NCBI RefSeq assembly: GCF_026151205.1
Contig: NC_087076.1
Location: 8,966,902 to 9,030,901, forward strand
From: Bolinopsis microptera
Taxonomy: Eukaryota; Ctenophora; Tentaculata; Lobata; Bolinopsidae
DNA length: 64,000 nt
Direction of reading: 5' to 3'
The position numbers were made by a program, and so were the translations under genes. Numbering within the stretch: position 1 is the first letter of the stretch; each line of letters begins with the position of its first letter. Below are positions 44,103-64,000 of the stretch, one piece after another. Under the pieces are notes generated by a model that worked only from the letters and a program-made list of their open reading frames with translations, had not been told where the DNA came from and searched no databases.

Positions 44103-44151
44103 ATGGTCGCCTCCTTTTTACTACTGCTATCCTGTTTAACTGCTCTAACAG
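44103..44151 (+). CDS. Exon 1: signal peptide and start codon
   Basis: The exon encodes MVASFLLLLSCLTALT, a typical secretory signal with a short polar start, a leucine-rich core and small residues near the end. The donor is ACAG|GTTTCA, phase 1, which fits the phase 1 acceptor of the CCP exon at 44391. I chose this ATG because it is the only leader-like start upstream of the first CCP that gives the right phase. The donor is weak (GTTTCA) and the surrounding sequence is repeated several times downstream (44131-44320). Confidence 0.75.
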
Positions 44152-47100
44152 GTTTCACTTTCACTGTCCTGTTTAAGTGTTCTAATAGGTTTCGCTTTCA
44201 ATATCCTTTATAACTGTTCTAATAGGTTTCACTTTCACTATCCTTTATATATTTTCTAATATTTTCTTTTCATTTCCAAAATTCTGTCTAACTGCTTTAA
44301 CAGGTTTCAATTTATTTGCCGTGTCTTGAATGCGACCACAGTAACTGTTGTAACCCTAATAACCACAGTAACCCTTATGACCTTATTCAGTTGCTGCAAA
44401 AGTCCCGTGCAGCGCAATCCCAGAACATGGAGACGTAACGAAAGGTGGAGAAGGAGTCTACAATTTCAGATGTTTGGACACAGATAAACACGAACTGGTT
44501 GGCAGAACATCGGCTTTATGTGACAGTGATGGCTTCTTCGAAATTGCTTCCTTGCCTAAGTGTGTAGGTAAGTACAGTGTAGGATGAAGGCGCACGAGGT
44601 TTTGGGTTTGACACCCAGCATGGATGCTTTATCTCGGGATGTTATATTAGAATTTGATGTTAGAAAATTATTATCTCGTCTGTCTTAAATTCTTGTTTCT
44701 TGTGACAACTGACAAGCCATAGCAAGTATTAGTTATAAAATCCTTCCTTCTCCAGAGAAGCAACCTCTGACCACACACATAAAGACTACACACAGTGGAC
44801 TTGAGTGCACTAAGGAGAAAGTGGCAGAAAGGCACAGTCTTCTCTTGCGGTACCTCTCACAGGCGCTGTGTATGAAGGAGCAAACTTGCGTCTTAAAGGG
44901 CATGTCTTTCACGTGTTCATCTCCTTTCAAGGTTGGTCATCAAATTATACTTTCTAGCTTTTATTTAAGTAATGAAACTGATGACAATAATCTATGGAGG
45001 TAAAATGAAAGATAGCAGATTGTGGGTCCAAATTCATACTACAAGTACACAGTTAACGCACCCGCAGGTTACTATAGAGTCAGTGTTCACAGTATCTGAC
45101 AGTCGAGCAGGAGATGATCTTGTGGACTTGGCCAGTAGATTATCAGAAAGCAAACACTCTAGGCAAAGGAGAGATATCAACTTCGATGATTTCGATACAG
45201 AAGATCCCGTAACTTCTGCTTGCGAAGATGGAGAGGGTGTTTCTAGCAATGGAGATAACTGCGGTCAGTTCAATTGAGATATCCTTTATAGTATCTAACT
45301 TATTATCCAAAGGCTGATTAACTATTAAGCAAAGTTTTGTTGGCCCAACTAAAAGGAGCCAAAAGTAAAACTGTCCATCTATATTATTCTAGTTTTCCCG
45401 GAGGAGCCCGATGTAGAGAGGTTTTACTGTATGATATTTCAGTGGAGTGTCCTGAGGGCATGTACGGAGACGGAGCTACAACTCCCAAGTGCGTAGAGTG
45501 CGCTTTGGGAACATACAATGCAGCGTCTAAACAAACTGAGTGTACAGCTTGTGTCAGCCCTAAGAGCACTTTGTTGACAGGGTCCACGGCTGCAGATGAT
45601 TGTAAAAGTGAGTACTTTTGCAGTTATCATTTTTCACTTCACGCTCCTACTTTCACCCTTATCGTCACTCTTACTTCACTTTCACTCTTACATTCGCTTT
45701 CATCCCCAAAGTAACCACACCCTCCCCAGTTTTGTGCACGCTACCTGCCGCATCAGAAAACAGTCAGTATACGATATCTGGAGTGGCGAAGTCTGACGGA
45801 ACCACAGTGGAGGTGGGGAGCGTGTTCACCTTGCTCTGTGATCAGGGACACACCTTCAAGAACGAAAATAAATTCACCCAGACCTGTACAGACGGCCTGC
45901 AGACAGCAGAAATCAAAAATGAGTGCTTCAGTAAGTTTTATCATCACTTCTTAGCAGTGACTATTGCGTTGGCTTCATACAAGTACAAATTTGATTTTAT
46001 CATTTTACGGGTCTGTGATATAGAAAAGCTGCAGCGTTATAAAATATTTCCTTGTGTTTAAACACTGCTATCTCTCTCAGAGGTGACGACGACACCAGAC
46101 GTAGCAGTGTACAAGTTCCTGGGCGAGACTGCCAGTATCACGTGTGTAGGAGAGAGTACAGTAGATCCCCACCTTATTGAAGTCAGAGATCCTGTTCCTA
46201 CCGGGCTCACCGTCAGTAAGTGGACACTTATCTCACATTTCTCACTCTTTTTAGACTCGTGTCTCGTTTCCTACATCGTTTATTGTAACTCAGTATCGAA
46301 TCCTGCATTGTTTTGATTGTTTGCTTAAATTATGTTTCGAACTGTATATAACCGGTTCCATGTTTCAGGCCCAGTTGCCAATACAGGGACCTGCGACGCT
46401 ACTAATAAAAACGAGAAACCAGAGTTCAGTGTAACAAGTGCCGCTACTTCTGGCCGATTTGAGCTGTCTTGTGACATGCAGGTTTGCACTGGTAGATATT
46501 TCTCTGTAAAACATTAGAGGTCTGATAGATATTATTTTAAGGCCAGGTAGCACAGTTGGTTAGAACGCCAGCTTTGCAATCGTAAGGTTGCGGGTTCGAA
46601 TCCCACTGTCTGCCTGGTCGTGGTGTGAGCGTCGTCGACGTTCAGCTAAGGATCCTGAGTGGTCTATGCAGCCCCCGGTCTACTCAGCCGAATACTCGAG
46701 AAATCGGGTGTGAGGGTTAAATGAGGAGCTGCACATTGCAGCAAAGTCTCGGGCGAAGAAAGTATGGTACACACTACCCTAACCGTAACTGGCAAAAACA
46801 AATCCTTCGGCTTCATGTAATTGGCTGGTTGCACTTGTGTAACAATGTGGCTGTTGGAATACTCCGAAGTAAAATAAGTGTCTTGATAAAACCTTGTATA
46901 TAAGAAGTTTTTCAGAGCATATCTTGGTGTTATTGAATGATGACGTTGACTGAACCCCACTGCAGGTTTACAGTGATATAAGCGAGAAGGAGCTGTCTGC
47001 CGACTCAACTACTGTAGTGTTCATGAAAGCAGTGGAACCTGCAGCCAACATAGATACTGACGTCGGAGCAGCTCTCACTTTGGCAGCTTTGGTCAGTCTG

Positions 47101-50100
47101 GATGATGCTTCTACTTACAGCTTCGCCTGGACAAAGGACGGCAGTACTTACAACACTGCCCAAAACAGGTAATATTCGTAAGTGTTACTGTTACCATGAC
47201 AAACGCGTTCGTTCGATTATTGAACGAATATCACTTACAGTGATATTAGTTACCGAATCGCACTGACCGGATATATTTTCGTATATTACGCTATACTGTT
47301 ACAGTGACGTAACTGTAACAACCGCACTTCCCAGTGACACAACTGTAACGGGACTGGCGTACAAGAGCTCGTCTGTGACAATAGCCAGTGTAACTCTGGA
47401 AGATAAGGGCACTTATGTAGCAACTGTCACCGTGTCAGACCTGACCGGCACCCAAATGTTAACTAAAACCTTTACAACCGTTGTTGCAATAAAAGGTGGG
47501 TATTTTTAGTGCCTATGAAATTATGAATGTAAAAATATTTGTTATTATCATTACTGGTCTTATGACGAAACTTTTGTCCATCTTTTCTATATAATATATG
47601 ATCATATCAGAATTTAATGCCAAGGTATTTAATTCTGCTAATAATATAAACCTGCCCAGGATTCTCCGTGCAGCCCCAAGATGCAGGTGGAGACACCAGT
47701 GTCATTCAGGCAGAAGGATCACAAGCTGTTCTGACCTGTGCTTTTTCGGGAACCATCGACGCTTCAGAGACTTTTACCTGGTAGAAAACCGCTCCTTCGC
47801 AAATATTTTTACTTTATCTTCATCATCACGATACTACGATACTAACTTTCAACCTATTCCTTGGCTTGATCAGTTAGTCATTTTAGTTAATTTAATACGT
47901 ATGACCCGTCCTGTTGAGATCAAATCATATCAGGACAAAAGATGCCGAAACTACCGACGCTAATGACGAAGCTTTCATGGCAGTGACGGCAGAAACCAAG
48001 GATGGAAGTCTCTACAAGTACTTAACCATAAACGCCTTTCCCGCCGGCTGGACAGACACTAAATTTGTGTGTAAGGTGTTTAAAACCAGTGATAAATCAG
48101 AGCTGTATAAGAGCGAGGCCATCTCCCTCTCATCCTCACGTATGTTACTTCTGACTTCTGAGTTAATCAATGTTTACCTTACTTCTGAGTTAATTAATGT
48201 TTACCTTACTTCTGAGTTATTTGATTTTTACCTTACTTCTGAGTTATTTAATGTTTACCTTACTTTTGAGTTAATTATCAGTATAAATAACATATATATT
48301 TAAGTCTTATAATGTACATTCCCCTCCAGCCTACGTAGTGACGATGGACGCTGCTGACAAGTGTACTGAAGATGGAAAAGACATTGAGTTCGAATGTACA
48401 GCCAGTTTCCCAGACAGTATCACTAACGGACCAACAGTAACCTGGCACAAGGTCTCAGAGGCCGGGGACACGCTCGTTGAGGTACAGTTGGCACCCTGCC
48501 AGTTGTTTTTAACCGCCACTCTTATATATGTAGCTGAGATGTGTTTTAAATTTATTTAGATAATTCAGCTACTAATTTTTTACTTGATTAAATACCATTT
48601 AAAGTTGTTTGTAATTAATGTCAAATCAAATGTTTGTTTCCCATATAGCAATTATTCCGCTATTATAAAGCACTGCTAAATTTATTGCTAATAATTAATG
48701 TGTTCATAAGTTAATCTCTATGCTAATATGTTACTAATAATATGTAATGACACCTTGCCACCTCTCAGCAACTTTTGGTGAGTGGACGTTACTCAGGTTG
48801 TGTTACTACGGTAACACGTTGAAGAATATAAGACTCGTATAGTATCTGTGCATGATAGATCTCTGTTGTTTTCTTGACTTGTTACTCTTCACTACCCAAT
48901 AGAAGAGGGGCAAGGATCTCACTTTTCATTTGTAATCCCCTGGATATATAAGGTTCCCTTAATATAAGGTTCCCCTAATATAAGGTTCCCCTAATATAAG
49001 GTTCCCCTAATATAAGGTTCCCCTTTGTATTGGGGTTATGGGGAATGTTGTTAAACATACCTCCACTCAAAACCCCCCACTATCTCTAATCACGTGATAA
49101 AACCAGATTACAATTCTCCTAAAATGAATGCTCGGTCATCCTTGTGCACGTGTTTGGTCACCCTTGTGCAAATTCTATCTGATTAAAGCTTTCTGCTCAA
49201 ACTCATTCTCATACCTCCCCAGCCAACACGCTTCTAAATAAAGCTCATCCAGTATAGGAAACTAGCCAAATTTGAATCTGTGTTTCTCCTTCTTTTTCTC
49301 CTTCTTCTTCTCGAGGTTGATATCGTATTCTAACACTATCTACACCACAACACACAATATGCTACACGTGTGTTTACCTGTACGTTGGAATGTTATTGGA
49401 ATGTATGATTGTGACAGTATGAGTGTTCATGTGTCCAGTTTCGCATTGGACTTGGTCGCATGTATTCGTAAATTAAAAGATTGTTTTATTGATTTTATTG
49501 TTGCACTTTATTGTACCAGTTATTGATTAGATTTGTGTGGTGCTGTAATACTCGCTGAGCTTTGTAATACATAAAACTAACTTCCTGTTATCGGAGCTCC
49601 TTTATCTAAGCAATACTTCTAACTGAGTTCCACTAAGTGATGAGAAGTTAGTTTACCACACGTTATAGCTCCCAATCCTCAATTACCCCTCATTTACCCC
49701 TTACTTACCCCTCATTTACCAGGACGGAGACAATTACGTAGTGCAAGGATCTAAAGATGGAATCATCTTCAAGTCCATCATGACTGTAGATAAGGCATCA
49801 AGCACCCAAGCTGGGAGCTTTTACTGTGTGGCTACTTACACTGAGCCGGACTATCTGCAAATATCCAAGAAGACTGATGCTAGATCCCTTACTGTAGTCG
49901 GTTAGTGAGATGGATTTTTAATCATTTCCTTTCTCTCACAAATCAATGATAATACAAATATTATTGGTTCTTAAATTTTTATGAGATCCCAGTTTATAGA
50001 TTTTTAAAAAACTCTCTGCTCTGAGGAGGAGAGAAAGTTTTTGTGGAGAGCCGCTCAGACATGGGCACCGTATTGTGTAAATTATTTAGGTATATTTTAT

Positions 50101-53100
50101 GCAATATCTTTGTCGCATACGAGCGGGGTAGTAAATATTGTGTTTCGTTTCGTACTTTAGTGCTTGTTCTGTTCAGATAGTTGAAAGTTGTATTATTACT
50201 GACAAACCTTTCTAACCAGATCTGGCTCCTATACCGAAGAAGTACGTTCTTATCGGGGATACGGACATTATATTGACGACCACTTTTACTGGACAGAAGC
50301 CTCTAGCAGCTAAGTGGTCGAACGAAGCGGGCGATGAACTGGTCACTGGTGCAGATTATACTGTAGTGGGTGACGTCAGCGCTGATAACGGACCTTATAC
50401 CCTTAGTTTATTAATTAAAACTGTGTCTGCTAGTACTCCTGTCGGTTTTTATGTCGAGCTCAACCTAGCTCCTGAATGTGATGGATTGGCTGTGATGAAC
50501 CAGTACACAGAAGATGCTGAGCTCGAGATACTAGGTTAGTGATTAACATTTGCAGTAGTGTTGCCATGGTAACAATAGAGGTTAATTGTCTTACATTTGA
50601 TCCTTATCTCTGACAGATGGTTTGTCAGTACTATCATACTGCATTCAAAGATCGATAAATAGTAGTCGCTGAGTTACATAAAACTCAGTTCAGTCTGTGT
50701 GCTTTACTTAATCTGTAAACTTCGTGACTATTAAAGTTACTTGAAACTCAACTTAATCTGTAAACTTCGTGACTATTAAAGTTACTTGAAACTCAACTTA
50801 ATCTGTAAACTTCGTGACTACTTTTAAATATCCATTCCTCAGAAGCCTCAGTACTTGATTGTAAGTTATCGTGCTATTACAACCTTACCACCTTGCCACA
50901 TATCTCATTTAAAAACATTCAACCATTTCAATACGGTGTAGGGATATTATTTCGAACAAATCGCAATTTCACGTAAAAGACTTCGGGTGTTTGCTTTGAT
51001 TCCGAGATTGTTGCAGTGACCCTAGAATTAGGAGATTATCAAACTTGTTCCTCATGACCATCTTTGTCCATAAAAAACAACTATAACCTAAAACTAACAA
51101 CAACTAACAACATTCATGCGCTAACATCTAGCTACTAACAAATTACACTTCCCTTCAAAAACAAGACTAAATGCACTGTGCAGCTACTTTACAGAACTAT
51201 ATACAGTTCTATTAGCTATCGCTATTATACAACTGCAGTTGTGTTAGTAGCAGTGACAATATCGCTCTATAACGCGTTCATTGAGAAGCTTCTTTAGAGT
51301 TTAAAAACTCCTTAAAGTAAAGTTAAAAGACATTAGCAGTTGTGTAGCCCTTACACTCATCATCCCAGCCGCTACAATCAGCACTGACGCTACAGAGTTT
51401 AAAGCTGAGAACGACTACGCGTTTGAAGGTTCTGATGTAAAGTTTACATGTCTCTACTCCAACCCATCAGACCAAGCAGCCCCCGCTGTCACCTGGACTG
51501 CTACTGCTACTAACGGTGGGGCAGCTATCTCTACCGGAACACCTGATAACAGCGCCGCAGCCAGTAGTCCGGTAAGTAGTTTCATGGTGGCAGTTGTTAT
51601 GGTAACAGTAGTGTTGTCATGTTAACATTAGTGTTGTCATGGTAACAGTAGTGTTGTCATGGTAACAGTAGTGTTGTCACGGTAACACTAGTGTTGTCAC
51701 GGTAACAGTAGTGTTGTCATGGCACCAGTAGTGTTGTCATGGCACCAGTAGTGTTGTCATGGTAACAGTAGAGTTGTCATGGTAACAGTAGTGTTGTCAT
51801 GGTAACAGTAGTGTTGTCATGGTAACAGTAGTGTTGTCATGGTAACAGTAGTGTTGTCATGGTAACAGTAGTGTTGTCATGGTAACAGTAGTGTTGTCAT
51901 GGGAACAGTAGTGTTGTCATGGTAACAGTAGTGTTGTCATGTTAACAGTAGTGTTGTCATGGTAACAGTAGTGTTGTCATGGTAATTGGTAATAGTAGGG
52001 TAAGTACTAATCTGAATACCAGATCTAACTATAATAATTGTTATTCAGGAAGGAAAAGTAGTGATAACTTTGTCGAGTGTAACAGTTGACGGACACAGTG
52101 GTACTTACAAGTGTGACGCAGCGTACCCCAACTCTATTGGAACTGCTGCTTCTTCTATTAGAAATCTCCATGTTATAGGTATGTTTCAACTTGGTCCTCC
52201 ATCTAGATTTTAATTTCTACTTTATATTCCTTCTATATAATAAGAGGTTATCTGTGTGGTGTGTGGTGTTGGTAACCAGAATATTGTGCAGGATTCAAGC
52301 CACTAACCACTACATACGTGGGAGAAGGAGGTGACACTAAGGTCACGTGCACCTTTACTGGCAAGACCGGTGTTGTTACCTGGTCACAGACCGGGAACAC
52401 CAAGGATCTCTCCTCCAACGTCAATACTGGGTAAATACTTACTTGCTGTGTTCTACTAACTGTTACGTAACAACTAACTGTTACTTAACAACTAACTGTT
52501 ACTTAACAACTAACTGTTACTTAGCAACTAACTGTTACTTAGCAACTAACTGTTACTTAGCAACTAACTGTTACTTAGCAACTAACTGTTACTTAGCAAC
52601 TAACTGTTACTTAGCAACTAACTGTTACTTAGCAACTAACTGTTACTTAGCAACTAACTGTTACTTAGCAACTAACTGTTACTTAGCAACTAACTGTTAC
52701 TTAGCAACTAACTGTTACTTAGCAACTAACTGTTACTTAGCAACTAACTGTTACTTAGCAACTAACTGTTACTTAGCAACTAACTGTTACTTAGCAACTA
52801 ACTGTTACTTAGCAACTAACTGTTACTTAGCAACTAATATCTCTATCCCAAGTAACTATGAGAATGGTGAGATAACAAGTGAATTGTCCTTAACAAACGC
52901 CCAACACGCAACTGATGAGGGTCAATATAGTTGTACTATGAAATACAGTGAGATTACTGAGGAGAAAGAACTTCAGCCCTGGCTCAAAATTATGAGTAAG
53001 TACTTTATACTCAATAAGTTAGGATTGACAATTAATGTCAAATCAAAGAATTTGTTTATCTCAATTATTATATTCTCAATTATATAAGTCTAAATTTTCA

Positions 53101-56100
53101 AAAAATGAAATAAAACTTGTATCATTGATGTACCAAAATCCATAATCATGGGTAGAGTGGACCGCTGCCAGTGTCTCTCTTTCCCAAGAAAAGCGAGCGA
53201 CCGATTTCATTCTGGGTATAATTTTGCATTTGCAGACGGTCAATCAAATTAATATCATTTCCTTTTGGTTGGGAAAGAGAGACTGGCAGCGGGCCACTCT
53301 ACCCATGATTATGGATTGTGGTAAAATATCATCTCTTTTTGCCTGCTGAGTCTTAATGCCTGAAAAACAATAAAGGGGGTAAATAGTAAAGGGGGTATAA
53401 TAGTGAAGGGGGTAAATAGTATAGTGAATATAAGAGGCGCGGTCATGCTTGCCAGCAGGGTGATGGATGTCGATTAAGTCGGTGATTTGAGAGTGAAAAT
53501 ACTATTGTAAAGTTGTGAATCAGTCACATTAGAAATAGAGCTGACTGGTATGTTCTATAATTAGATCCTGTACAGTTTACACATTATACATACATGCTAC
53601 AATATTTAAAACAAACTATATGTTTACTCTGTCACATCATTAGTAAAATACAGCCCTCTCTTTGTGTTTTGGTCACATGTCAATTTACACGGAAATACAA
53701 CACGACAGTGAGTTACAAGCATTTCCATAGTTTCAAGCATTACCACAGTTACAAGCATTACCACAGTTACAAGCATTACCCACAGTTACAAGCATTTCCA
53801 TAGTTACAAGCATTACCACAGTTACAATCATTACCCACAGTTACAAGCATTACCCACAGTTACTAGGGTTACCATGGTTACATCTGAGGATTAAAAGTAG
53901 TGAAACTGCTTTACTAAAAGCAAATCCTCTTTCATCCTCTCTGGAGCAAGATGATTTGTTAAAAACACGAAAAAAAATAGTCAGTCAATCACGCACTGTT
54001 ATTTTCATAAATATCTTACTTGCTCGTAGAATCATCTCTTCGATTGTAGCCGTAAGTATCTCTCGTGGTGATATTACCTTATATGGTAGCATGTCTAACC
54101 AGTGCATAATTTCAGGGATAACAGAAGTGACCGCTGTGCCAGTGTACAACGTGTTAGCAGCTAAGTTCGACCTCTCTTGCAAGATCTCGTGGGACGTAGC
54201 AGACTTATCGTACACTCCTACCGTAACCTGGCAACTGACCGACACAGCAGGAGCCCCTAAAGCTCTTACAAACGCCAACACTGATAAATACACCTTCACT
54301 GTAGCCAGTTCTGCAGCTACCGACATGGGCTCCTACCAATGTAAGGTAGATTTCAACGGAGTGGAAGTGACGGGTGATGTCACAGTGTACGTGCGAACAC
54401 CTCCAGTGTTTGCTGTCAGCGTAGCGAATCCTACCGCCTCCAACTTCAACTCTCCCAGCACAGTGGTACTGGGAGCACCTGTAACTCTGAGCTGCACCTT
54501 CTCGGGTGATGCTACAGGGGATGTACTGTGGTATGAGGGTACCAACATCCTCACTGACACTAGTCTCTACACTCTAGATGCCGCTGCACATACTACTTAC
54601 GGTGCTACCAGCAGTGCTGTCATTCTGTCAGTTATAGATGCTACACACGAAGGAACCTACAAGTGTAAGTCCACTTACACGTCCGACAGTGTAGATACAG
54701 AGTCCAACGCCCTGACTCTCTCTGTGTTGGGAGCTACTGGAGTCACCAGCTCTAAACGGTTTGCTAACAAAGGGGACGACATCACCTTTACTTGTAACTA
54801 TTTGGAGCTAACAGGAGATGACTCCCCTGCTACATGGTCTGTACAGGGAGACGCCCTAACCAAGGCTGCAACCAACACGGCTACCTCTAGTGAGTTTACT
54901 GTTACCGGGGCAACTGTGGAGAGCAACGGAAAAGCAACGTGTACCGTGACCTACAGTAACTCTCTGACTAACTCTGTGGAAGTGGATCAGTATGTGAGGG
55001 ACACAGTGTTTGGAAATGTTATTGATGGAAAGTTGTATGCTCTGAAGGGTGCACAAGCTGTACTCACATGTGTTATACATGGTGACGGTCTTAAGGAAGA
55101 TATTGAATGGACTCCAGCAGGTAATATTTGTAAACATTATCTTATTATTGATGAAGGCTTAGTCCTGTTATTTTCGTATATGTTGTGTAGGATTTTAATT
55201 ATGAACCTAGTAAACCCAAACCTTTTTTACTGGATAAATACGATTAAGCTATATGATAAGAATGCATTGGATCTTGATTTGGTTTGTGACTAAGATGTCA
55301 AATTACCATAATACACCCCAACAGGAACTGCAAACACAGAAACATATACATCAGAGTCCACCTCCTCTACCTATACAATAACCTCTGTTGCTGAGGCTGA
55401 TGAAGTGGAATACACTTGCTCAGGACGATATTCAGAGGACGATGTTAAATCTACTGCTGCTCAAACTCTCACTGTCCTAAGTTAGTTTTACTTATTACAA
55501 TTTCTTGTTTTCTTAATTTCTTACTGTCCTCAGTTAGTTTTACTTTGTACAACATTTTAGTCTCTTACTGTCCTCAGTTAGTTTTACTAAGTACAACTTT
55601 TTAGTTTCTCGCTTTCCTAAGTTAGTTTTACTTTAGTACTAGGCTAATCCCATTAGTATTTAAAGTATGTCCCACGCCTGTCAAGATGATTTCCAACTTG
55701 GATATCATCCGACACACATTATATATTACCCTTATAACTTGGCATTACCTTTATTACCCTTCTCAGAGGTAACGGTGACTGGAACTTCTCCTGTGAACAA
55801 GGCTGGGGACACTACTCTCACTTGTGACCCTGTTGACGTCGCCTCTACCTACTCCTGGACAAAGGTACAACACTTTCACTTTCACTTTTACTTTCGCTTT
55901 CACTTTCACTTGTTTGGGCTAGAAACAAAGGGACTGCGCTGTTCAGATCTCCCAATTTATCATCTTTATATTGAGTATTATAGAGTAGAAGGTGCGACTT
56001 AAAGAAGGTCAATATGACAATAAACTAATATCTCCTGTTCCCAGGGAGCAAACCCAATAAATGGCGAGACAGGGAACACCCTAATACTGAGTGGAGTGGA

Positions 56101-59100
56101 CTTCACTGCAGCTGCTGATTACAAGTGTACTGTAGTCTACCTTCACAGTCTTGGTACTTTGGAGAGTGAGGCTTTCCCCGTCTTCGTTCAAGGTAACGTC
56201 CACTTTCACTTTCTACTTTCGGTATTTTTGTCTTCGTTCAAAGTCAGGAGGGTTTTTAATGCGTTTTCAAGCAGGTTTATTGTGGATGAAAATTTGAATT
56301 TTTAGAACCTTATAAACAAATAACTTGACCCTTTCCCACAGGTTTTGTTAGTTTGGAACAAGGACCTAAAGTTGGATCATACAATGAGGTAGGAGAGACG
56401 ATCACACTAAAAGCTACGATAACATCTCCAACATCCCCGGACACATTCAAGCTGTACAAGGGAGACGATACCGACGTCACACCTATCACTAACACTCCTG
56501 CTCCCACTCAAAATGCAGTCGACCAAGTAAGTAGTAAAACACTATGGTCCTGATTAGGGCGCCAATAAAATGTTATTTAGCATGTTTTTATATTTCTCAT
56601 CTCGTGTTCATTCTCGATGGAGTTTAAAATTTAAAGATATTCAGTTCTCTCTTTAAATTAACATCGGCTGAATAGGTGCTTCTGAATTCCTCAATAATTC
56701 AAATAAACTCCACCATTCCACAGTCCTGGGATGTGGAAATAGAGTTCCTGGCTACTAAAGTAGCGGGAAAGACAGTGGCTTACAAGCTGGTTGTGGAGAA
56801 CACTGGTAGTATCGAAAGTACTGTCTCTATTGACGTATTCGGTTAGTACTAACGTAACAGCAATTCTTAGAAATATATTTTGGATTCTCTCTGTCCAACA
56901 ATGGTTAAGATATTTAAAACTAAAATAAATCCCCCAGAGAAGTGTCCAGTAGAGGCAGTAGCAGATATCACAGCTCTGGACGGAACACCACTAGACCACA
57001 TGGGCACAATATCTAATTTGGAGTGTACTGGAGGTAAAAGTCTGCTGGGGTCCCCGGCTGCTGCCTGTAATGACGGTGTCCTCACTTGGTCTGCCCCTCT
57101 TTCTGCTCAGCCTGAGTGTATTGGTGAGTTTACTGGTTTATTAGCGCCGGGCATATACATCTCCTATCTGTTGTAATGAGCGATCTTTAGTAGTTTATAT
57201 AAACCTAACACTGATCACAATTAAAGTGGGTAATTCTGGGAATCCTTGTATCTAACTCATTGTATTTTCAGAACTCGGTAAGTCGATAGGGGATACGTAA
57301 GTTATCATTTTATTAAATATTATCGTCATTAGCTTCATTCGATCTTTTAATTATTTTGTAATTTAATCAAAGAAACGATGATATTACGAACATGACACCT
57401 CTTTGCATGACGTCACACACCACGTGACATGACTTCACACACCACGTGACATGACGTCACACGCCACGTTGCATGACGTCACACACCACGTGACATGACT
57501 TCACACACCACGTGACATGACGTCACACGCCACGTTGCATGACGTCACACACCACGTGACATGACGTCACACACCACGTGACATGACGTCACACACTACG
57601 TGACATGCCGTCAAACGCCACGTGACATGACGTCACACGTCACGATGCATGACGTCACACGCCACGTTGTATGACGTCACACGCCACGTGACATGACGTC
57701 ACACGCCACCTCACTGCCTGTTTCTCTCAGCGGTACAAACAGATCCTGTAGACCAGCTTGTGGAGATCGGCAAGGAAACTACAATGTCCTGTTCGTCCAT
57801 CACTACTCCTGTTACTGTAGCCAGTGTGGAGTGGTTCAATGGGGATGGCGTTGTGCATACTGATACTAACCCTGCTGCTGTTCAAGAGAGTGGTTAGTAA
57901 CACTGCTTTATTTACCATTCCTATCTAATTAAGTAATTTTCAAAACTTTATAATTATAGGCATATTATTGTCAGAAGATAACTTGAGATGATTTTATTTC
58001 AAATGTCACCGCCACTTCTAGTTTCAGTCCATTCTTAAGTAAAACGATAAAACCTCGTGTTTCAAATCTTACATAACTGTTACAGGTGGAACCCGTAACG
58101 TCTACACAAGTAACTACAAGATAACAGGAGCGAATGCTCTCAACGAAGTGTCTTACGGGTGTAGAATGATAACTGACGCTGACAAGACTGTCGAGTCTCA
58201 TTTAGCTAAAGTTTACATTGTCGGTAAGTGTTAACAAACATTGAGTTTATGGTTGGTTTTACGTCGACAAAAGTAAAGCTGAGTTTTTGTAACAATTTTT
58301 ATTTTTTGAAGAGAGGTTAGGCCTGGATGGCCCACGAGAGGATAGCATGTGGATGCTCTGCCTGCCTTTGGGGTATGGCAAGTGGCAACCCTGGTGGAGG
58401 TTGCCGGAGAAATCAAAGTGAAAAGTTGAGGATGGTGTTATGAGGGGAGATGAGTCATTAGTTATGCAGAGTTATGCAGAACATTAAGATTTTCCCTTTG
58501 TTGCTAGCCTTATCTGATATTGTTACGATGATAACAGCATTATAAATTTTGGATATAATCCGACTATTCTGTCAGGTATTAAGTCCATCACTTCCACTTA
58601 TCCTGGACAGTACTTTGAGAGCGACAACAGTGGAGTTGCTGACTACTCAGAGACGGGCACTATCAAATTTGAGGTAAGTTTTTAGTTAGTTTCTATAAGT
58701 TATATTCTTAATAGTTACTAGTTAGATTCTAGTTAGTTTCTAGTGGGTGACTAGTTAGTTCCTGGTTACTTTTATTTAGTTTCTAGTTAGTTTCAAGTTA
58801 GTTTATAATTAGTGCGTGAAGAAGCAACATCACGTGATATTGTATATTTATCTTATCTCTAATATACTCTGTACAGGTGTACGTTGGACCAGGTGTGAGT
58901 TCACAGACAAGCAAACTTGAAATAGGAGGCGCTGATGTTGTAGTCACCTTCACTTCAGGGACTGAGACTGACAACTTGGTGAGTCGCTGATTCCTTCCTT
59001 TTATACTTTACCTCTCGCGGGTACTTCATTTTTAAAAGTCTTCCCGGGCTCCTGAACTTAATAAAATATCTTATTATTAAATACCTCACTCCAAACTGTA

Positions 59101-62100
59101 AGTATATAAACTCTGCCCAGATGCCCTACTCTTACACGATAGCAGAGGAAAACAAGAAAACAGGGACTTACACAGTGACTGTAACTTACACCAAACCAAC
59201 TGATGCTAACGGTGACGCTTCTTACTCAACAACTATCTTCCTTCCTGTGTATCGTAAGTTTACAAATTGGTCTGAAACGAAAGTTAATATAAATACCGTC
59301 TTGTGGAACATGTAAAACACAACTATTGTACTACTTACACCAGAAACTTTTTGATTATTTTAGTGTCATGTTTGTTAAAACCTGTTATCTAAAACACGTC
59401 CCCCGTTAGAGTTCTGTAAGGTGACAGAGTTACCAGACGTAGAACGAGGCAGCTGGACTCCTGGGGACAAGGTGGACCACAGAGGCTACGCTACTCTCTC
59501 TTGTGCTGACGACGCAGACGGCAATAAATGGTAACACGCTGTTTTTAGTGGGGGCGGAAGGGGGGGGCCTTAGTTTGTTAACTTGTTTTTATTATGTACC
59601 TGCTTGCACCTAAGGTTTCGGTGTTAAAGTGGAATTTTGCGGCCGCTGTTTTACCGCTCAGAACTTGTTTAGTAATATTCACAACCATACTGGAAACTAC
59701 TTCTAAAACTTTAAATAGTATGTCACATTGCCACTACTTCTAAAACTTTGAATAATCTGTCAGGTACATGAAAGGAGACGGTGTAGCCCAATGCCTAATG
59801 GGATCAGAGAACTTCCAGTGGGAAACCCTAACTCCAGCCCCGACCTGTAACCCACAGTCAGAGCTGGTGGAGAAGTGTGGATTGTTGGAGGAACCGGAGT
59901 TTGGAGACGTGGTTTATAAGGATGAGAACACAGCCTACTTCACGTGTGGTGCCGGGTACACTCTCATCGGGGCAGAGCAGGTACATACTGCACCATTACA
60001 TAGTGAAATAGTGAAATACTGCACCATTGCATAGTGAAATAGTATAATACTGCATCATTGCATAGTTTTACATAATTGTTGCTGTCTGTGATTTTAGTAT
60101 TCACCATCTCGCTCCACCAGGAATACACGTGTGACTCAGACACGGGGGCTTGGTCTATCATTACTAAAGATAACCCTAACGGACATCCTCCTAAATGTCA
60201 AGGTAAGCATCATTTTATAGGACCAAACCAAATATTGCTCTTGTTTTCTTTTTGTGAACCCACAAACTCTGACAACGTATGGAGCTTGATTGACAAAATG
60301 GTGATGCCATAATCATTGTATTGGTTCCTTGACCCTTCTTGAAAATCAAAATTATATATATTATAATAAATTTTAAACAAGTAACTGCATGAGTCTGATT
60401 ACAGCTTTATTTTCAGCAACTGTCGCCGCTGTAACTAGACACGTGATAGTATCCGGTATGGAGATAACTGTAAGCGAGAATGTGTGCTCTGACGAGGCCG
60501 GAAAAGACAGAGTTTCAAATGCTTTGAAGGCGTATTTAGAGGATGAGGATATAGTGAGGTGCACTGTTGAGAGCTATTGTACCTGGGAGGACTTTACTTG
60601 TACTGCCGCTGATTCATTACTCACTGTCGGCTTCAAGCTGAGCCAAATCACCTCTCTCAACGATAAAACTGTTGTAACGGAAGATGAGGCTAGGATCAAA
60701 TCCCAGGCCCCTACAAAGACATTCCAAGTGAACACTGAATCAAATAAGCGAGCTATTGTCTCTGCTACGATCAATAAAGTAACAACAGATGTAGCTACAA
60801 CCTGTTCTGCAGGATATGCTAGAATTGATAACTCTTGTTCTTCCTGTCCGTCCGGGTGGGGTTACGCTGGTGACACGTGTGTTCCTTGCTCTATTGGTTC
60901 CTATAGTACCGGTAACTCTATCTCCGCTTGTACACAGTGTACGGACGCTAAAACTACATACAATATCGGCTCCACATTGGCGGCTGCATGTGTGGAGGGT
61001 GCTGCAGTGTGTACTATAGGGGTTGCTGCGGGAGTCGCTACTTTTGTACCTCCCACTGGATCTCGAGTAGAGTTCGATAAGCTTATCTCTGTTACGTGTG
61101 GTGTAGGTCATGCTCTTGCTGTGGATGCTGATAACACCTTCAAGTGTGGGGCTACTGCTCCTGCTTGTTACGGTTAGTTATTTTATTAACACCTTCTACT
61201 CCATAGTCTTTAGTCTCAACTTCAGCTCTTATGTCTTAACACGATTTGTGTAGATTAATTGATTTCATGTCCATCTTTAATCTTTATTTATCGAACAAGA
61301 GATCCACTGATTTTAGAGAAACACAGCTTCGCTGTGTCAGCCATCGCTAGATAAACATTGGAGTGTAGAGTTACATAATTAGCTTGAGTCCAAGTCACGA
61401 GTTTACTCTGACGACTGACGCCCACATTATGATAATCATCATGCCCATATTAGGATAGTCACATTTCTTCCCCACAGAGGTATGCTTGTTGGCTGATAGA
61501 TCAACTGACGAGTTGAAAGCTCTGTTTATACACGATAATATTGACGCTACTGGCCAGCTAGTCCACAATGAAAAGATTCAAGTAACCTGTATGGCAGGCT
61601 ACGAACTTGCTGAGGACGAACCCGTCAAATCTTACACTTGTAACGACGGTACTCTACCTGTTTTCCAGGCCTGTATAGGTTAGTACAATGTACATTTAGT
61701 ACATTATGTACATTTAGTACATTATGTACATTTAGTACATTATGTACATTAAGTACATTATGTACATTTATTTAATATATATTATCATTGTATCCTCCTA
61801 ATAGAACAATATATAATATTGTATAGGCGAACTGAGGTTACGTGAATTATATAATAAAATAGTTATTTTTTGAATATACAATTGTGATAAACTTGATCAT
61901 TATCAAACTTTCATAAAACAATTGACGTAAAGTTAATTGTGTTAACTAAAGCAAATACAAAGCTTAAAGGTGTAAGCAAAAGAAAGGTAACGGTAATTAA
62001 AAAGAGGAAGCGTTATAATAGACTCACATTTTACTGTTTGTTTTGAAATCCTTTTATCTTCCGAATCTGAACTGATGTTGAATCTCATTGAATGACCCAG

Positions 62101-63126
62101 TGTAGTGTGTAACACAGGGTCATTCAATGAGATTCAACACCAGAAAGGGCCTGTGTTTAAACTTTCTGGTGAAATCTGATCAATTTCCAATTTTTTCCAA
62201 AATGTTGTTCTTGTATTTAATCAGAAACAGACATGTTGAACACAAAACCAATCACATTCGTTAATCTTAGCTTGCGTAAGCCGTCTTATTGTTGAAAAAT
62301 CTAAAGCCAATATAAGGACTCTATATTATGATGTCACAACATGACAATGTCCTTAAAAGGGTATAATGTTGAACATTGTGCCCTTATTAGGACATCAGGT
62401 GATAGAGTCACTGTGATCAGTGTGCATATTCTGGTCATTTCCCATCACTTAACAGTGTTTCCATGAGTTCTATACTGAATACAGCTCGAGCTACTGAAGC
62501 ATTAGTTGACTATAGCTCGCTTTACTGGATCTTGTTACTTTTAGTGTAATGTCCTGCGATTCAGCTGGTTTCTGAGATTTCTCAAGTTTGTCTGACTGAA
62601 GTGGGAGATTTGCTAGTATGAACTTTATTATTGAGGTTTATCGTTTTTTCGAGTTCTTCGCTGCTCTCTTTTTTAATGTTATTGCGCACACGTACTGGGG
62701 TAAGTGAACTTTAGTCTCTAATCACAAGTGTGTTTTAAGTGTGTTTTTAGTGTGTTTTTAGTGTGTTTTTAGTGTGTTTTAATTATGCTTTTTAAGTGTG
62801 TTTTTAGTGTGTTTTTAGTGTGTTTTTAGTGTGTTTTTAGTGTGTTTTTAGTGTGTTTTTAGTGTGTTTTGAGTGTGTTTTTAATGTGTTTTTAGTGTGT
62901 TTTTAGTGTGTTTTTAGTGTGTTTTGATGTGTTTTGAGTGTGTTTTTAGTGTGTTATTAAGTTATTAGTGTGGTCTCATTTATCTTTACAAATATCGTAA
63001 TTTGTCACCATCTTCCGTCAACAAGGCGGTTAAAACAGAAAGAATGGTGACTAAAATCTCAGGCAGCACAATCTGTGCAATTAACACGTGTTGAGGTGCA
63101 GACGTCTCACGAAATAGCGCCCAATT

Positions 63127-63209
<83 letters not shown>

Positions 63210-63210
63210 C

Positions 63211-63262
<52 letters not shown>

Positions 63263-63403
63263 AATATTTCAGAGCAAGCAGGATCTCAAGTGCTTACCAC
63301 AGTAATAGTATGTGTGGTTGTGTTGGGTGTGGCTGTTATATTACTATTCCTCTTTATCATCGTTCAATGGAGGAAAAAGAAAAACGCTGCTAGTTACAAG
63401 TAA
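44103..63403 (+). CDS. Giant type I membrane receptor with CCP, Ig-like, ELR-like and X modules (37 exons, 2409 aa)
   Basis: I built this model by joining open segments bounded by AG acceptors and GT donors with matching phase. Exons: 44103-44151, 44391-44567, 44756-44931, 45068-45263, 45443-45607, 45730-45930, 46081-46215, 46369-46481, 46966-47168, 47305-47495, 47660-47780, 47934-48139, 48330-48481, 49723-49900, 50220-50534, 51369-51571, 52049-52178, 52292-52430, 52853-52995, 54116-55120, 55325-55480, 55767-55864, 56045-56192, 56342-56526, 56724-56841, 56938-57123, 57731-57892, 58086-58223, 58576-58673, 58877-58978, 59121-59253, 59410-59530, 59764-59980, 60121-60202, 60417-61172, 61478-61678, 63273-63403. 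They total 7230 bases. Domain borders carry phase 1 introns; introns inside Ig domains are mostly phase 0 or 2. The product should be surface-anchored, with a roughly 2370-residue ectodomain and a tiny tail. Role in adhesion or self/non-self recognition is inference from architecture. Exact ends of exons 6 and 37 are the least certain. Confidence 0.85.
44131..44320 (+). repeat. Minisatellite that copies the exon 1 end and its splice donor
   Basis: A unit of about 35-45 bases, running from CCTGTTTAACTGCTCTAACA through GGTTTCACTTTCACT, recurs three or four times after the true exon end. Each copy keeps a TCTAATAGGTTTC or TTTAACAGGTTTC core, so the intron holds several look-alikes of the authentic donor. 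Confidence 0.7.
44391..44567 (+). CDS. Exon 2: CCP/Sushi domain 1 (residues 17-75)
   Basis: One complete CCP-like module in a single exon flanked by phase 1 introns. It opens with VPCSAIPEHGDVTKG, has a central FRCLD, a third cysteine in ALCDSDGFFE and closes with LPKCVG. Four cysteines and the conserved glycine and aromatic positions match the complement control protein fold. CCP domains bind proteins or glycans outside the cell; no partner can be inferred here. Confidence 0.85.
44756..45263 (+). CDS. Exons 3-4: cysteine-bearing module X with an RQRR site (residues 76-199)
   Basis: Exons 44756-44931 and 45068-45263, joined by a phase 0 intron (donor TTCAAG|GTTGGT). The first part has LECTKEKVAE, a helix-like LLLRYLSQALC, then TCVLKGMSFTC and a beta-like VTIESVFTVSD. 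The second part is acidic and contains HSRQRRDINF around residue 169, which matches a furin-type R-X-R-R site, and ends with cysteines in TSACEDG and GDNC. A related module with the same cysteine spacing occurs in exon 35. I do not recognise a named family. Cleavage at residue 169 would split the ectodomain or release the N-terminal CCP unless a disulfide or noncovalent contact holds it. Confidence 0.75.
45443..45607 (+). CDS. Exon 5: ELR-like cysteine-rich motif 1 (GCC2/GCC3 type, residues 200-254)
   Basis: The exon starts with VECPEGMYGDGATTPKCVEC and continues with ALGTYNAASKQTECTAC and a closing TGSTAADDC. The pattern C-x(2)-G-x-Y/T ... C-x(2)-C-x(3)-G-x-Y ... C-x(2)-C is that of the ephrin-receptor-like / GCC2-GCC3 motif, also found beside CCP domains in large extracellular proteins. 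Phase 1 introns lie on both sides. Confidence 0.8.
45730..45930 (+). CDS. Exon 6: CCP/Sushi domain 2 (residues 255-321)
   Basis: The exon encodes a CCP-like module with LCTLPAASENSQY, VFTLLCDQGHTF, FTQTCTDGL and a final NECF. Two acceptors fit the same phase 1: CCCCAAAG at 45711 and CTCCCCAG at 45729. I use the second because it has the better pyrimidine-AG consensus; the first would add six residues. Confidence 0.8.
46081..46481 (+). CDS. Exons 7-8: atypical Ig-like domain 1 (residues 322-404 and onward)
   Basis: Exons 46081-46215 and 46369-46481. The segment has a B-strand-like GETASITCVGES, then a second cysteine in NTGTCDATN and a third in RFELSCDMQ. The domain finishes in the start of exon 9. 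The cysteine layout is unlike a standard Ig V or I set, so this could instead be two half-domains fused by exon shuffling. The donor after exon 8 (ATGCAG|GTTTGC) is phase 0 and the next intron carries a SINE. Confidence 0.65.
46541..46852 (+). mobile_element. tRNA-derived SINE, copy 2, in the intron after exon 8
   Basis: Complete tRNA-like head with A box (TAGCACAGTTGG) and B box (GGTTCGAATCC), then the family body and the 3' segment ending AACAATGTGGCT. It sits in the sense orientation of the host gene. Confidence 0.9.
46966..47495 (+). CDS. Exons 9-10: end of Ig 1 and cysteine-less Ig-like domain 2 (residues 405-535)
   Basis: Exons 46966-47168 and 47305-47495 joined by a phase 2 intron. 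Ig-like features are GAALTLAALVSL where a B-strand cysteine would normally sit, YSFAWTKDG for the C-strand tryptophan, and LEDKGTYVATVTV in place of D-x-G-x-Y-x-C. Both canonical cysteines are replaced by alanine. Confidence 0.75.
47660..48139 (+). CDS. Exons 11-12: Ig-like domain 3 (residues 536-644)
   Basis: Exons 47660-47780 and 47934-48139. The intron interrupts the C-strand tryptophan codon (phase 2: TG|G). The B-strand cysteine is in QAVLTCAFSG, the tryptophan in ETFTWTKDA and the F-strand cysteine in TKFVCKVFK. The phase 2 split at the tryptophan recurs in Ig domain 2 nearby and at the sushi split at 59530. Confidence 0.85.
48140..48275. repeat. 27-bp tandem repeat starting at the exon 12 donor
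   Basis: Four to five copies of TTACTTCTGAGTTAATCAAT-type units followed by GTTTACC. The first copy overlaps the splice donor GTATGTTACTTCTGA. Confidence 0.85.
48330..49900 (+). CDS. Exons 13-14: Ig-like domain 4 (residues 645-754)
   Basis: Exons 48330-48481 and 49723-49900, phase 0 intron between. B-strand IEFECTASF, C-strand TVTWHKVSE, F-strand AGSFYCVATY. The 1241-base intron is the longest inside an Ig domain here and contains a 16-bp tandem array near 48945-49025. Confidence 0.85.
48945..49025. repeat. 16-bp tandem repeat ATAAGGTTCCCCTAAT
   Basis: Five units in the intron between exons 13 and 14. Confidence 0.9.
50220..50534 (+). CDS. Exon 15: Ig-like domain 5, single exon, lacking the usual cysteine pair (residues 755-859)
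   Basis: The exon begins DLAPIPKKYVLIGDTD, has TDIILTTTFTG where a B-strand cysteine is expected, AKWSNEAGDE as C-strand and NGPYTLSLLI. The only cysteine is in APECDGL. Unlike its neighbours, the domain has no internal intron. Phase 1 on both sides. Confidence 0.8.
50690..50825. repeat. 46-bp tandem repeat in the intron after exon 15
   Basis: Nearly three copies of a unit with TAATCTGTAAACTTCGTGAC and AAAGTTACTTGAAACTC. Confidence 0.85.
51369..52178 (+). CDS. Exons 16-17: Ig-like domain 6 (residues 860-970)
   Basis: Exons 51369-51571 and 52049-52178, phase 0 intron. B-strand DVKFTCLYSN, C-strand AVTWTATATN, F-strand SGTYKCDAAY. The intron is mostly a 20-bp minisatellite made of X-box-like palindromes. 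Confidence 0.85.
51585..51990. repeat. 20-bp minisatellite with X-box-like palindromes (intron after exon 16)
   Basis: About 19 copies of GGTAACAGTAGTGTTGTCAT. The unit junction creates GTTGTCATGGTAAC, close to the RFX X-box pattern GTNRCC-N-RGYAAC. The array begins a few bases after the GTAAGT donor. Confidence 0.95.
52292..52995 (+). CDS. Exons 18-19: Ig-like domain 7 (residues 971-1064)
   Basis: Exons 52292-52430 and 52853-52995, phase 2 intron (GG|T glycine codon). B-strand DTKVTCTFTG, C-strand GVVTWSQTG, F-strand EGQYSCTMKY. I placed the acceptor at CTATCCCAAG (52852) because the nearer TTACTTAG sites in the minisatellite give an immediate stop. Every copy of the 18-bp repeat offers a decoy TTACTTAG acceptor. 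Confidence 0.8.
52459..52838. repeat. 18-bp minisatellite CTGTTACTTAGCAACTAA (intron after exon 18)
   Basis: About 21 copies; the first few read GTAACAA or TTAACAA in place of TTAGCAA. GTTACTTAGCAAC is an X-box-like half-site pair. The 18-base period keeps an open Asn-Cys-Tyr-Leu-Ala-Thr frame that is not the exon 18 frame. Confidence 0.95.
53133..53321. mobile_element. Small MITE with long inverted ends in the intron before exon 20
   Basis: The 189-base element has ends starting CCAAAATCCATAATCATGGG that match over about 50 bases with small gaps, including AGTGG(A)CCGCTGCCAG and a CTCTCTTTCCCA core. Flanking TA at 53131-53132 and 53322-53323 suggests Tc1/mariner-type insertion. Confidence 0.8.
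53718..53870. repeat. 18-19-bp tandem repeat TTACAAGCATTACCACAG
   Basis: About eight units in the intron before exon 20, with C-insertion variants (TTACCCACAG). Confidence 0.9.
54116..55120 (+). CDS. Exon 20: 1005-base exon with three whole Ig-like domains and part of a fourth (residues 1065-1399)
   Basis: Open throughout, acceptor ATAATTTCAG, donor GCAG|GTAATA, phase 1 at both ends. Three full Ig units follow each other: FDLSCKISW..VTWQLTD..GSYQCKVDF, then VTLSCTFSG..VLWYEG..GTYKCKSTY, then ITFTCNYLE..ATWSVQG..KATCTVTY. A fourth begins with AVLTCVIHG and EDIEWTPAG and finishes in exon 21. Neighbouring Ig domains have internal introns; here at least three have none. Confidence 0.9.
55325..55480 (+). 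CDS. Exon 21: second half of Ig-like domain 11 (residues 1400-1451)
   Basis: Acceptor ACCCCAACAG, phase 1; carries the F-strand VEYTCSGRY that pairs with the cysteine at the end of exon 20. The donor CCTAA|GTTAGT is copied several times downstream (55471-55630). Confidence 0.8.
55471..55630 (+). repeat. Minisatellite that copies the exon 21 end and its splice donor
   Basis: The segment ACTGTCCTAAGTTAGTTTTA recurs about four times with small changes (TACTGTCCTCAGTTAGTTTT, GCTTTCCTAAGTTAGTTTTA). Each copy keeps the GTTAGT donor-like hexamer, so the intron offers a ladder of equivalent 5' splice sites. Confidence 0.75.
55767..56192 (+). CDS. Exons 22-23: Ig-like domain 12 (residues 1452-1533)
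   Basis: Exons 55767-55864 and 56045-56192, phase 0 intron after SWTK. B-strand TTLTCDPVD, C-strand TYSWTK, F-strand AADYKCTVVY. Compact domain of about 80 residues. Confidence 0.85.
56342..56841 (+). CDS. Exons 24-25: cysteine-less Ig-like domain 13 (residues 1534-1634)
   Basis: Exons 56342-56526 and 56724-56841, phase 0 intron. Ig-like spacing is kept (GETITLKATIT, DTFKLYKGDD, KTVAYKLVVENTG) but neither core cysteine is present. No stop or frameshift suggests decay. Confidence 0.75.
56938..57123 (+). CDS. Exon 26: CCP/Sushi domain 3 (residues 1635-1696)
   Basis: Starts EKCPVEAVADITALDG, with ISNLECTGGKS, AAACNDGVLTW and a closing QPECI. Four cysteines in CCP spacing; phase 1 introns both sides. 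It interrupts the Ig series. Confidence 0.85.
57272..57277 (+). other. Possible 6-base microexon (AACTCG)
   Basis: TTGTATTTTCAG | AACTCG | GTAAGT gives a strong acceptor and donor only six bases apart. Inserted between exons 26 and 27 it keeps phase 1 and would add Glu-Leu. Not needed for the model, so it would be optional if real. Confidence 0.35.
57395..57720. repeat. 22-bp minisatellite of CRE and E-box motifs, ending at a 3' splice site
   Basis: About fourteen copies of a unit like CATGACGTCACACACCACGT. Most carry a perfect CRE palindrome (TGACGTCA) and many a CACGTG E-box. The array ends directly before the pyrimidine tract and acceptor of exon 27 (CTGTTTCTCTCAG). Confidence 0.85.
57731..58223 (+). 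CDS. Exons 27-28: Ig-like domain 14 (residues 1697-1796)
   Basis: Exons 57731-57892 and 58086-58223. B-strand TTMSCSSITT, C-strand SVEWFNGDG, F-strand VSYGCRMITD. The internal intron is phase 1, unlike the phase 0 or 2 introns inside most other Ig domains of this gene. Confidence 0.8.
58576..59253 (+). CDS. Exons 29-31: cysteine-less Ig-like domain 15 split over three exons (residues 1797-1907)
   Basis: Exons 58576-58673, 58877-58978 and 59121-59253, phase 0 introns between. No cysteine is present. The end KTGTYTVTVTY is an Ig-like F strand with valine in place of cysteine. Assignment to the Ig fold rests on position and this strand. Confidence 0.65.
58690..58800. repeat. Degenerate repeat TTAGTTTCTAG
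   Basis: Around nine 11-14-base units beginning right after the exon 29 donor GTAAGTTTTTAG. Confidence 0.75.
59410..60202 (+). CDS. Exons 32-34: CCP/Sushi domains 4 and 5 (residues 1908-2047)
   Basis: Exons 59410-59530, 59764-59980 and 60121-60202. CCP 4 runs from FCKVTELPDVERG through ATLSCADD and VAQCLMG to APTCNPQ, split at a tryptophan codon (phase 2). CCP 5 runs from EKCGLLEEPEFGD through AYFTCGAGYTL and EYTCDSDTG to PPKCQ, split by a phase 0 intron. These introns inside CCPs differ from CCPs 1-3, which are single exons. Confidence 0.85.
60417..61172 (+). CDS. Exon 35: module X copy 2, ELR-like motif 2 and CCP 6 in one exon (residues 2048-2299)
   Basis: A 756-base exon, phase 1 at both ends. 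It opens with a module matching exons 3-4: NVCSDEAGKD, NALKAYLEDEDIVRC, ESYCTWEDFTC and LLTVGFKLSQ. It then reaches an acidic/basic stretch with SNKRAIV where copy 1 has RQRR. Next come CSSCPSGWGYAG, CVPCSIGSYSTG and CTQCTDAKTTY of an ELR-like motif, then a CCP with AVCTIGV, LISVTCGVG, TFKCG and PACYG. In the N-terminal copy the same series is spread over exons 3-6, so introns were lost here or gained there. Confidence 0.85.
61478..61678 (+). CDS. Exon 36: CCP/Sushi domain 7 (residues 2300-2366)
   Basis: Single-exon CCP with EVCLLADRST, IQVTCMAGYEL, SYTCNDGTLP and FQACI, flanked by phase 1 introns. It is the membrane-proximal ectodomain module. Confidence 0.85.
61679..61770. repeat. 18-bp tandem repeat TGTACATTTAGTACATTA
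   Basis: Five units starting at the exon 36 donor (GTTAGTACAATG); the unit is rich in TGTACA palindromes. Confidence 0.9.
61771..62617. other. Intron before exon 37, with two hairpins
   Basis: 62077-62098 pairs perfectly with 62117-62138 (22-bp stem, 18-base loop). A second stem CACCAGAAAG / CTTTCTGGTG (62138-62147, 62162-62171) abuts it. An imperfect AATGTCC...GGACAT fold lies near 62350-62395. They could be MITE remains or an intronic small-RNA source; nothing shows which. Confidence 0.6.
62618..62699 (+). CDS. Possible alternative first exon with hydrophobic leader
   Basis: ATG at 62618 (A at -3) opens 27 codons beginning MNFIIEVYRFFEFFAALFFN and ending HTYW, then a strong phase 1 donor G|GTAAGT. 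An in-frame TGA lies just upstream and no acceptor of the right phase is present, so it is not an internal exon of the long gene. Spliced to exon 37 it would give a small membrane protein of about 70 residues. It may also be chance. Confidence 0.3.
62728..62960. repeat. 12-bp tandem repeat GTGTGTTTTTAG
   Basis: About 19 units, directly following the donor of the possible alternative first exon at 62618-62699. Confidence 0.95.
63127..63261. repeat. (AACT)n microsatellite
   Basis: About 33 tetranucleotides with one CTAC change, ending ten bases before the acceptor of the transmembrane exon. Confidence 0.97.
63273..63403 (+). CDS. Exon 37: transmembrane helix and short cytoplasmic tail (residues 2367-2409)
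   Basis: Acceptor AAAATATTTCAG, phase 1, follows an (AACT)n tract. The exon encodes EQAGSQ, then a 25-residue hydrophobic helix from VLTTVIVCVVVLG to LFIIV, then QWRKKKNAASYK and TAA. The RKKK run is a normal stop-transfer signal on the inner side. No ITAM, ITIM or kinase domain is present. The stop lies inside a donor-like CAAGTAAGA, so splicing at 63399|63400 to a downstream exon would replace the last residue and extend the tail. Confidence 0.8.
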
Positions 63404-63564: not shown

Positions 63565-63570
63565 AATAAA
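63565..63570 (+). promoter_or_regulatory. Candidate poly(A) signal AATAAA
   Basis: AATAAA about 160 bases after the TAA of exon 37. It fits a transcript ending near 63590, but the window closes too soon to rule out further exons. Confidence 0.4.
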
Positions 63571-63611: not shown

Positions 63612-63780
63612 TGAATCACAAAAATTACCATAGCAACAGTTACTATAACAAAAGTTACCATAGCAACAGTTACTATAACAAAAGTTACCATAGCAACAGT
63701 TACTATAACAACAGTTACTATGGTAACAGTTACTATGGTAACAGTTACTATGATAACAGTTACTATGGTAACAGTCAGTA
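63612..63780. repeat. 15/30-bp repeat with X-box-like motifs downstream of the stop
   Basis: Alternating AGTTACCATAGCAAC and AGTTACTATAACAAA-type units, then AGTTACTATGGTAAC units. GTTACCATAGCAAC and GTTACTATGGTAAC fit the RFX X-box pattern. The multiple-of-three period keeps a Tyr/Asn/Ser-rich frame open (63551-63781). Confidence 0.9.
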
Positions 63781-64000
63781 AAGCAACTATAAGCTGAACA
63801 TGTTAATACTAGTGCTGCAATTTCAATTTCGCTGAAATTATCAGGAACTGATCAAGTTTATATAAATTTGCATCAACCATTAGATAATTAGTTAATGGAT
63901 TAAAAATAGTATAAATACAGTTATATGAATTAGTTCATTTTTCATTCTCATACCAATAATCTAACAAACTCTTGTTTCTCAGCTAACTCTACCATGCTGG

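Follow-up and report, generated by a model that had tools for sequence, protein, structure and literature searches.

Within the 64,000-nucleotide stretch of Bolinopsis microptera DNA analysed here (the window), the forward strand between 44103 and 63403 encodes one gene, and its predicted product of 2,409 residues contains no N-glycosylation sequon (N-X-S/T, where X is not proline). The product has a calculated mass of 255 kDa and a pI of 4.4, is acidic and Thr-rich, and comprises approximately 26 extracellular modules, most of them of the immunoglobulin (Ig), CCP/Sushi and Ephrin_rec_like (ELR) types. Our preferred explanation, to which we give a probability of about 0.5, is that the locus holds one gene for a long, acidic, Thr-rich type I membrane rod that acts in adhesion or recognition and in which N-glycans have been selected against. 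The rod shape, passage through the ER and selection are interpretations drawn from the data below, and the module types alone suggest a function in adhesion.

The sequence-only reading had spliced 37 exons by hand into 7,230 coding bases without a stop, giving 2,409 residues, and we could reproduce this model: all 36 introns are GT-AG, there is one terminal stop, and no internal stop or frameshift is needed across the coding bases. A gene finder that we wrote and first trained with 12 ORF pieces gave 30 of the 37 exons. It broke the locus into two parts at exons 25/26, the acceptor of exon 26 having scored under its cut-off; the other seven exons were corrected by phase and stop codons, with the totals of the earlier reading known beforehand. 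With splice models retrained on the curated introns, one gene was returned in all four settings (scores 733.6–813.5, vs 18.9–62.6 for five controls); 32 or 33 exons matched the curated model exactly. With generic amino-acid frequencies on repeat-masked DNA, one gene was again obtained in 4/4 settings (303–488, vs 16–53 for three controls), and 26 or 27 exons were identical. The two sets of reruns are not fully independent of the curated model, since splice sites were taken from its introns and two of the four generic-frequency runs also reuse its synonymous codons. The single gene in 8/8 later runs bears out the earlier one-gene claim. In codon cross-validation, 34 of 37 held-out exons scored positive, the negatives being exons 1, 19 and 37. 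Exons 1 and 37 as drawn were chosen in no gene-finder run; the grounds for drawing them are phase and a hydrophobic stretch in each, signal-like in exon 1 and membrane-spanning in exon 37. A possible 6-base microexon was chosen in the first run and in all eight later ones; it keeps the frame and adds two residues, and the resulting product of 2,411 residues is still sequon-free.

Features of the gene, with the evidence for each
Feature	Coordinates	Strand	Evidence
Exon 1, signal-like peptide MVASFLLLLSCLTALT	44103..44151	+	hydropathy 2.24 over 19 residues; weak donor; negative codon score
Exon 2, CCP1, 4 Cys	44391..44567	+	no Pfam match alone; beats 499/500 shuffles vs CCP5; in joint CCP profile
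Exons 3-4, N-terminal X domain, RQRR furin-like site at aa 166-169	44756..45263	+	motif scan
Exon 5, N-terminal ELR (Ephrin_rec_like)	45443..45607	+	Pfam PF07699 E 3.1e-8
Exon 6, CCP2	45730..45930	+	Sushi E 0.0027, under cut-off
Exons 7-25, Ig1 to Ig13	46081..56841	+	Ig_3 E 1.2e-48, 9 stretches in aa 536-1533
Exon 20, Ig8-10 and half of Ig11	54116-55120	+	single exon
Exon 26, CCP3, 4 Cys	56938..57123	+	no Sushi match alone; in joint CCP profile
Candidate 6-base microexon	57272..57277	+	gene-finder runs
Exons 27-31, Ig14 and Ig15	57731..59253	+	Ig14 canonical, leave-one-out 3.2e-8; Ig15 without Cys
Exons 32-34, CCP4 and CCP5	59410..60202	+	Sushi E 0.00064 for CCP5, narrowly missing the cut-off; no match for CCP4
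Exon 35, single exon holding C-terminal X, ELR and CCP6	60417..61172	+	Ephrin_rec_like E 2.6e-5; collinear with exons 3-6
Exon 36, CCP7	61478..61678	+	Sushi E 0.014, under cut-off
Exon 37, membrane-spanning helix plus short basic tail QWRKKKNAASYK	63273..63403	+	hydropathy 3.57 over 19 residues
Possible poly(A) signal AATAAA, 162 bases past stop	63565..63570	+	sequence motif

Both ends of the gene are less firmly placed than its body. Six candidates, 44103 among them, pass the first-exon filter. The last 25 bases of exon 1 fall in a 37-bp tandem repeat (44127-44261) whose first unit forms the exon 1/intron 1 border, so that the exon 1 donor occurs repeatedly. At the other end, a transmembrane helix followed by a very short tail had been proposed. 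The single-pass membrane protein stands and the tail is softer: the TAA stop of exon 37 sits within a donor-like GTAAGA, and six downstream acceptors exceed the score cut-off, five of which give at most eight residues after SY, and the sixth of which, at 63640, leads into a Tyr-rich frame of 47 residues that lies in a minisatellite. The search for a longer tail extended to the window end at 64000, with any exons beyond it outside its view. The AATAAA past the stop fits a gene end here.

Upstream of the gene, positions 1-44 kb hold many tandem repeats, including a 20-bp minisatellite of 82.6 copies (20984-22600) and a C-rich 58/116-bp array (36503-37563), and gene-finder runs and further scans found no other convincing gene there. 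Remnants of a reverse transcriptase (28372-28872, minus strand; RVT_1 1.5e-8) and of a DDE_1 transposase (14241-14537, plus strand; 1.2e-6) are present; pattern searches for the reverse-transcriptase remnant matched 191 and 2 stretches, with none confirmed. Within the gene, intron 8 contains what we read as a tRNA-headed SINE-like element (46540-46900; Rfam gave 0 matches and ARAGORN 0 tRNAs). A second copy of its core lies around 24281 with 1 mismatch in 24 bases, and the core was absent from the genome contigs and viral contigs searched. Intron 19 carries a MITE-like element (53131-53323) with 48-bp terminal inverted repeats that are 94% complementary. An 18-bp minisatellite of 21 copies (52455-52837) is open in frame, adjoins exon 19 and misled the gene finder. 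Two further minisatellites (51593-51985 and 63618-63787) are rich in GTTACCATGGTAAC-like palindromes, which we take to resemble the RFX X-box.

A Pfam search of the product upheld the proposed order of modules. Ephrin_rec_like (PF07699) matched in both expected places with 33.7 and 24.4 bits, above the curated cut-off of 23.1; Ig_3 matched at 1.2e-48, placing the array in the immunoglobulin superfamily with its Cys-Trp-Cys fold signature; and Sushi passed its cut-off at 7e-7 in the C-terminal piece. The individual counts of 15 Ig and seven CCP modules fared less evenly. A leave-one-out Ig profile recovered all ten canonical domains, including 9/9 within Ig1-13. Among the remainder, Ig1, Ig2 and Ig5 beat 200/200 shuffles and Ig13 and Ig15 beat 198/200 each; on these profile scores Ig1 and Ig2 are clear and Ig5 marginal, and Ig13 and Ig15 are doubtful, because the non-Ig X domain scores almost as high on the same profile. 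Searched singly, neither Ig1 nor Ig13 gave a Pfam Ig match. Of the CCPs taken singly, three of seven have a Sushi match and none passes the Pfam cut-off, while the joint profile of all seven matches complement receptor CR2 (8.4e-15), factor H (8.1e-7) and factor XIIIB (4.7e-6), identifying them as CCP/Sushi modules. The X domain matched no Pfam family; for exon 35, phmmer against the PDB listed only thyroglobulin at 0.012 and weaker, and a search of viral contigs gave no match. X may be comparable with the spacers of SCUBE or SVEP1. AlphaFold2 models of exon 35 and Ig5 had pLDDT values of 36 and 47, and Foldseek with the Ig5 model returned nothing at E 0.001 or better, the top hits not being Ig; owing to the low pLDDT of both and the lack of a Foldseek match for Ig5, we took no structural reading from them.

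The intron pattern follows the modules. We placed 27 module boundaries by hand. Introns fall at 20 of them, every one in phase 1, compared to phase 1 in 3 of the 16 introns within modules (Fisher 2.4e-7). Phase-1 introns at module borders are a classic sign of shuffled extracellular modules. Exon 20, with three and a half Ig domains, and exon 35, with X, ELR and CCP6, are fused where other copies are split, which suggests that both arose through intron loss.

An X-ELR-CCP cassette at both ends of the Ig array had also been claimed, and a repeat is indeed present. The N- and C-terminal cassettes align collinearly by blastp from CCP1/CCP5 to CCP2/CCP6 (63.5 bits, 78/316 identities), with an E of 1e-15 that refers to a one-sequence search without composition correction. 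The ELR-ELR score was reached by 0/500 shuffles, that of CCP1-CCP5 by 1/500 and that of CCP2-CCP6 by 2/500, compared to 252/500 for CCP1-CCP4 and 199/500 for CCP4-CCP5. The cassette is therefore repeated and its two copies are homologous overall, their likeness being carried by the ELR and the flanking CCPs. The X-X score, reached by 94/500 shuffles, is not significant, and X resembles X only through collinearity and cysteine spacing.

The stronger feature of the product, compared with its module order, is what is missing from it. With 92 Asn, 214 Ser and 322 Thr, 19.7 sequons are expected and none is present (binomial chance approximately 2e-10), an absence that came to light in a scan for three classes of motif (sequon, furin and integrin-type). 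None of 5,000 residue shuffles reached zero (minimum 7); shuffling within 60-residue windows gave a mean of 19.8 and a minimum of 6 (n = 2,000), and Markov sequences preserving neighbour pairs gave 18.5 expected, with zero reached in 0/3,000 and a minimum of 5. The only two N-x-[ST] matches are both N-P-[ST]. The deficit is specific to motif and frame. The reversed motif [ST]xN occurs 25 times (19.7 expected), N..[ST] is somewhat high (30 vs 20.5), and no deficit is seen for N at other spacings or for D, Q, E, K or G before x-[ST]. Evidence against the preferred explanation is that N-X-C, at which glycosylation is rare, shows no avoidance (3 vs 2.9 expected). In its remaining five frames the coding sequence contains 7, 13, 15, 10 and 4 sequons, vs 8.1, 13.2, 14.3, 11.4 and 4.3 expected, and non-coding ORFs of 1-44 kb contain 431, vs about 391 expected. 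Divided by parts, the deficit is significant only in Ig1-13 (0/2,000 shuffles) and in the C-terminal cassette (0.026); Ig14-15 (0.068), the N-terminal cassette (0.139) and CCP3 (0.73) have too little length for a verdict on their own.

For human membrane proteins, PMC5562741 describes extracellular and luminal regions that exceed the sequon expectation and cytosolic regions that match it. An average of 0.63 sites per 100 residues is given for secretory proteins of vertebrates in PMC3901687, which by our own arithmetic scales to approximately 15 sites for a product of this length. A protein that never meets oligosaccharyltransferase, or one from a species without the enzyme, should sit at chance; we therefore infer ER routing of the ectodomain and selection against N-glycans there.

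Several other explanations have to be weighed. Sequon loss could be species-wide, with secretory proteins generally avoiding N-glycans and the gene encoding an ordinary lineage-specific Ig/CCP adhesion protein. We regard this as possible but unlikely: among the titles and abstract starts from a literature search on sequons and lack of N-glycosylation we recognised no animal with proteome-wide sequon avoidance, and we know of none. That two neighbouring genes, or a pseudogene, were read as one appears very improbable; the split in the first gene-finder run speaks for it, but the single gene in every later run, the uninterrupted coding sequence and the frame-specific absence of sequons on either side of the split point to one translated product, or at least to translated genes. 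Alternatively, the product could be an extracellular scaffold, as a matrix protein or after shedding, with cleavage at RQRR in the N-terminal X or release close to the membrane; that site and the acidic, Thr-rich composition would suit this. We consider it distinctly improbable, as RQRR is missing from the C-terminal X and a convincing membrane helix follows. SVEP1, SCUBE and other CCP/ELR matrix proteins also have CCP adjoining ELR but are largely secreted and are not known to have an Ig array. As the array is mostly Ig, the product does not belong with RCA-like complement regulators, which are CCP-only arrays binding fragments of C3 or C4.

An allorecognition or immune receptor, with a role like that of Botryllus fester/FcoR or Hydractinia Alr, is improbable too. 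Ig and Sushi modules co-occur in fester and FcoR proteins, which also share the signal peptide and a transmembrane region with the present protein (PMC12065747, in the part used here). The same part gives them 350 to 610 residues, with three transmembrane helices in fester and a long tail with ITIM or hemITAM in FcoR, and its descriptions report no ELR; the present protein has 15 Ig, seven CCP and two ELR modules. With a single helix and a short tail, in which no signalling motif was seen, the model falls outside the fester/FcoR family; it is also ten times larger than fester, and tblastn against 1-44 kb revealed no tandem paralogue (best E 3.5). Beyond the module types, our analysis neither supports nor contradicts such a role. 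Hydractinia Alr proteins resemble the product in being membrane proteins with Ig-type extracellular recognition, and to our knowledge have no CCP or ELR. ITIM/hemITAM motifs are described for them in PMC12065747. Among the sequences of solved structures, exon 20 is closest to titin (6.5e-10) and Robo1 (1.4e-8), with weaker matches to SYG-2 (2.1e-4), DCC (2e-4), Dscam (0.018), JAM and NCAM2. Robo, DCC, SYG-2, NCAM2 and Dscam have tandem Ig domains in common with the present protein; they carry N-glycans and are not known to have CCP or ELR. As far as our knowledge and literature search extend, the modules are well known and the order in which they are arranged is new.

Under the preferred reading of a membrane rod with N-glycans selected against, a single helix followed by a short, basic tail would hold the rod in the membrane, the outer CCP-X-ELR-CCP cassette would be presented far from the membrane and the second copy would adjoin the membrane. 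Signalling, if any, would proceed via partners rather than the protein's own tail. Loss of sequons is as expected if packing or protein-protein contact requires bare module surfaces. A more specific and rather doubtful version is that some twenty sequons were purged one by one because bare Ig/CCP sides form extended contacts such as zippers, lateral or homophilic, that even one N-glycan would harm; the ends of such a contact would be marked by the paired cassettes.

The absence of sequons provides frame-specific and homology-independent evidence for translation of the whole model and for entry of its product into the ER. Extracellular regions normally carry at least the expected number of sites, going by the human data in PMC5562741, which makes a 2,409-residue ectodomain with none an outlier and points to a definite constraint. 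If this constraint is specific to the gene, a glycan-free surface contact would be directly testable; if it is species-wide, Bolinopsis microptera would be an animal whose secretory proteins avoid N-glycans.
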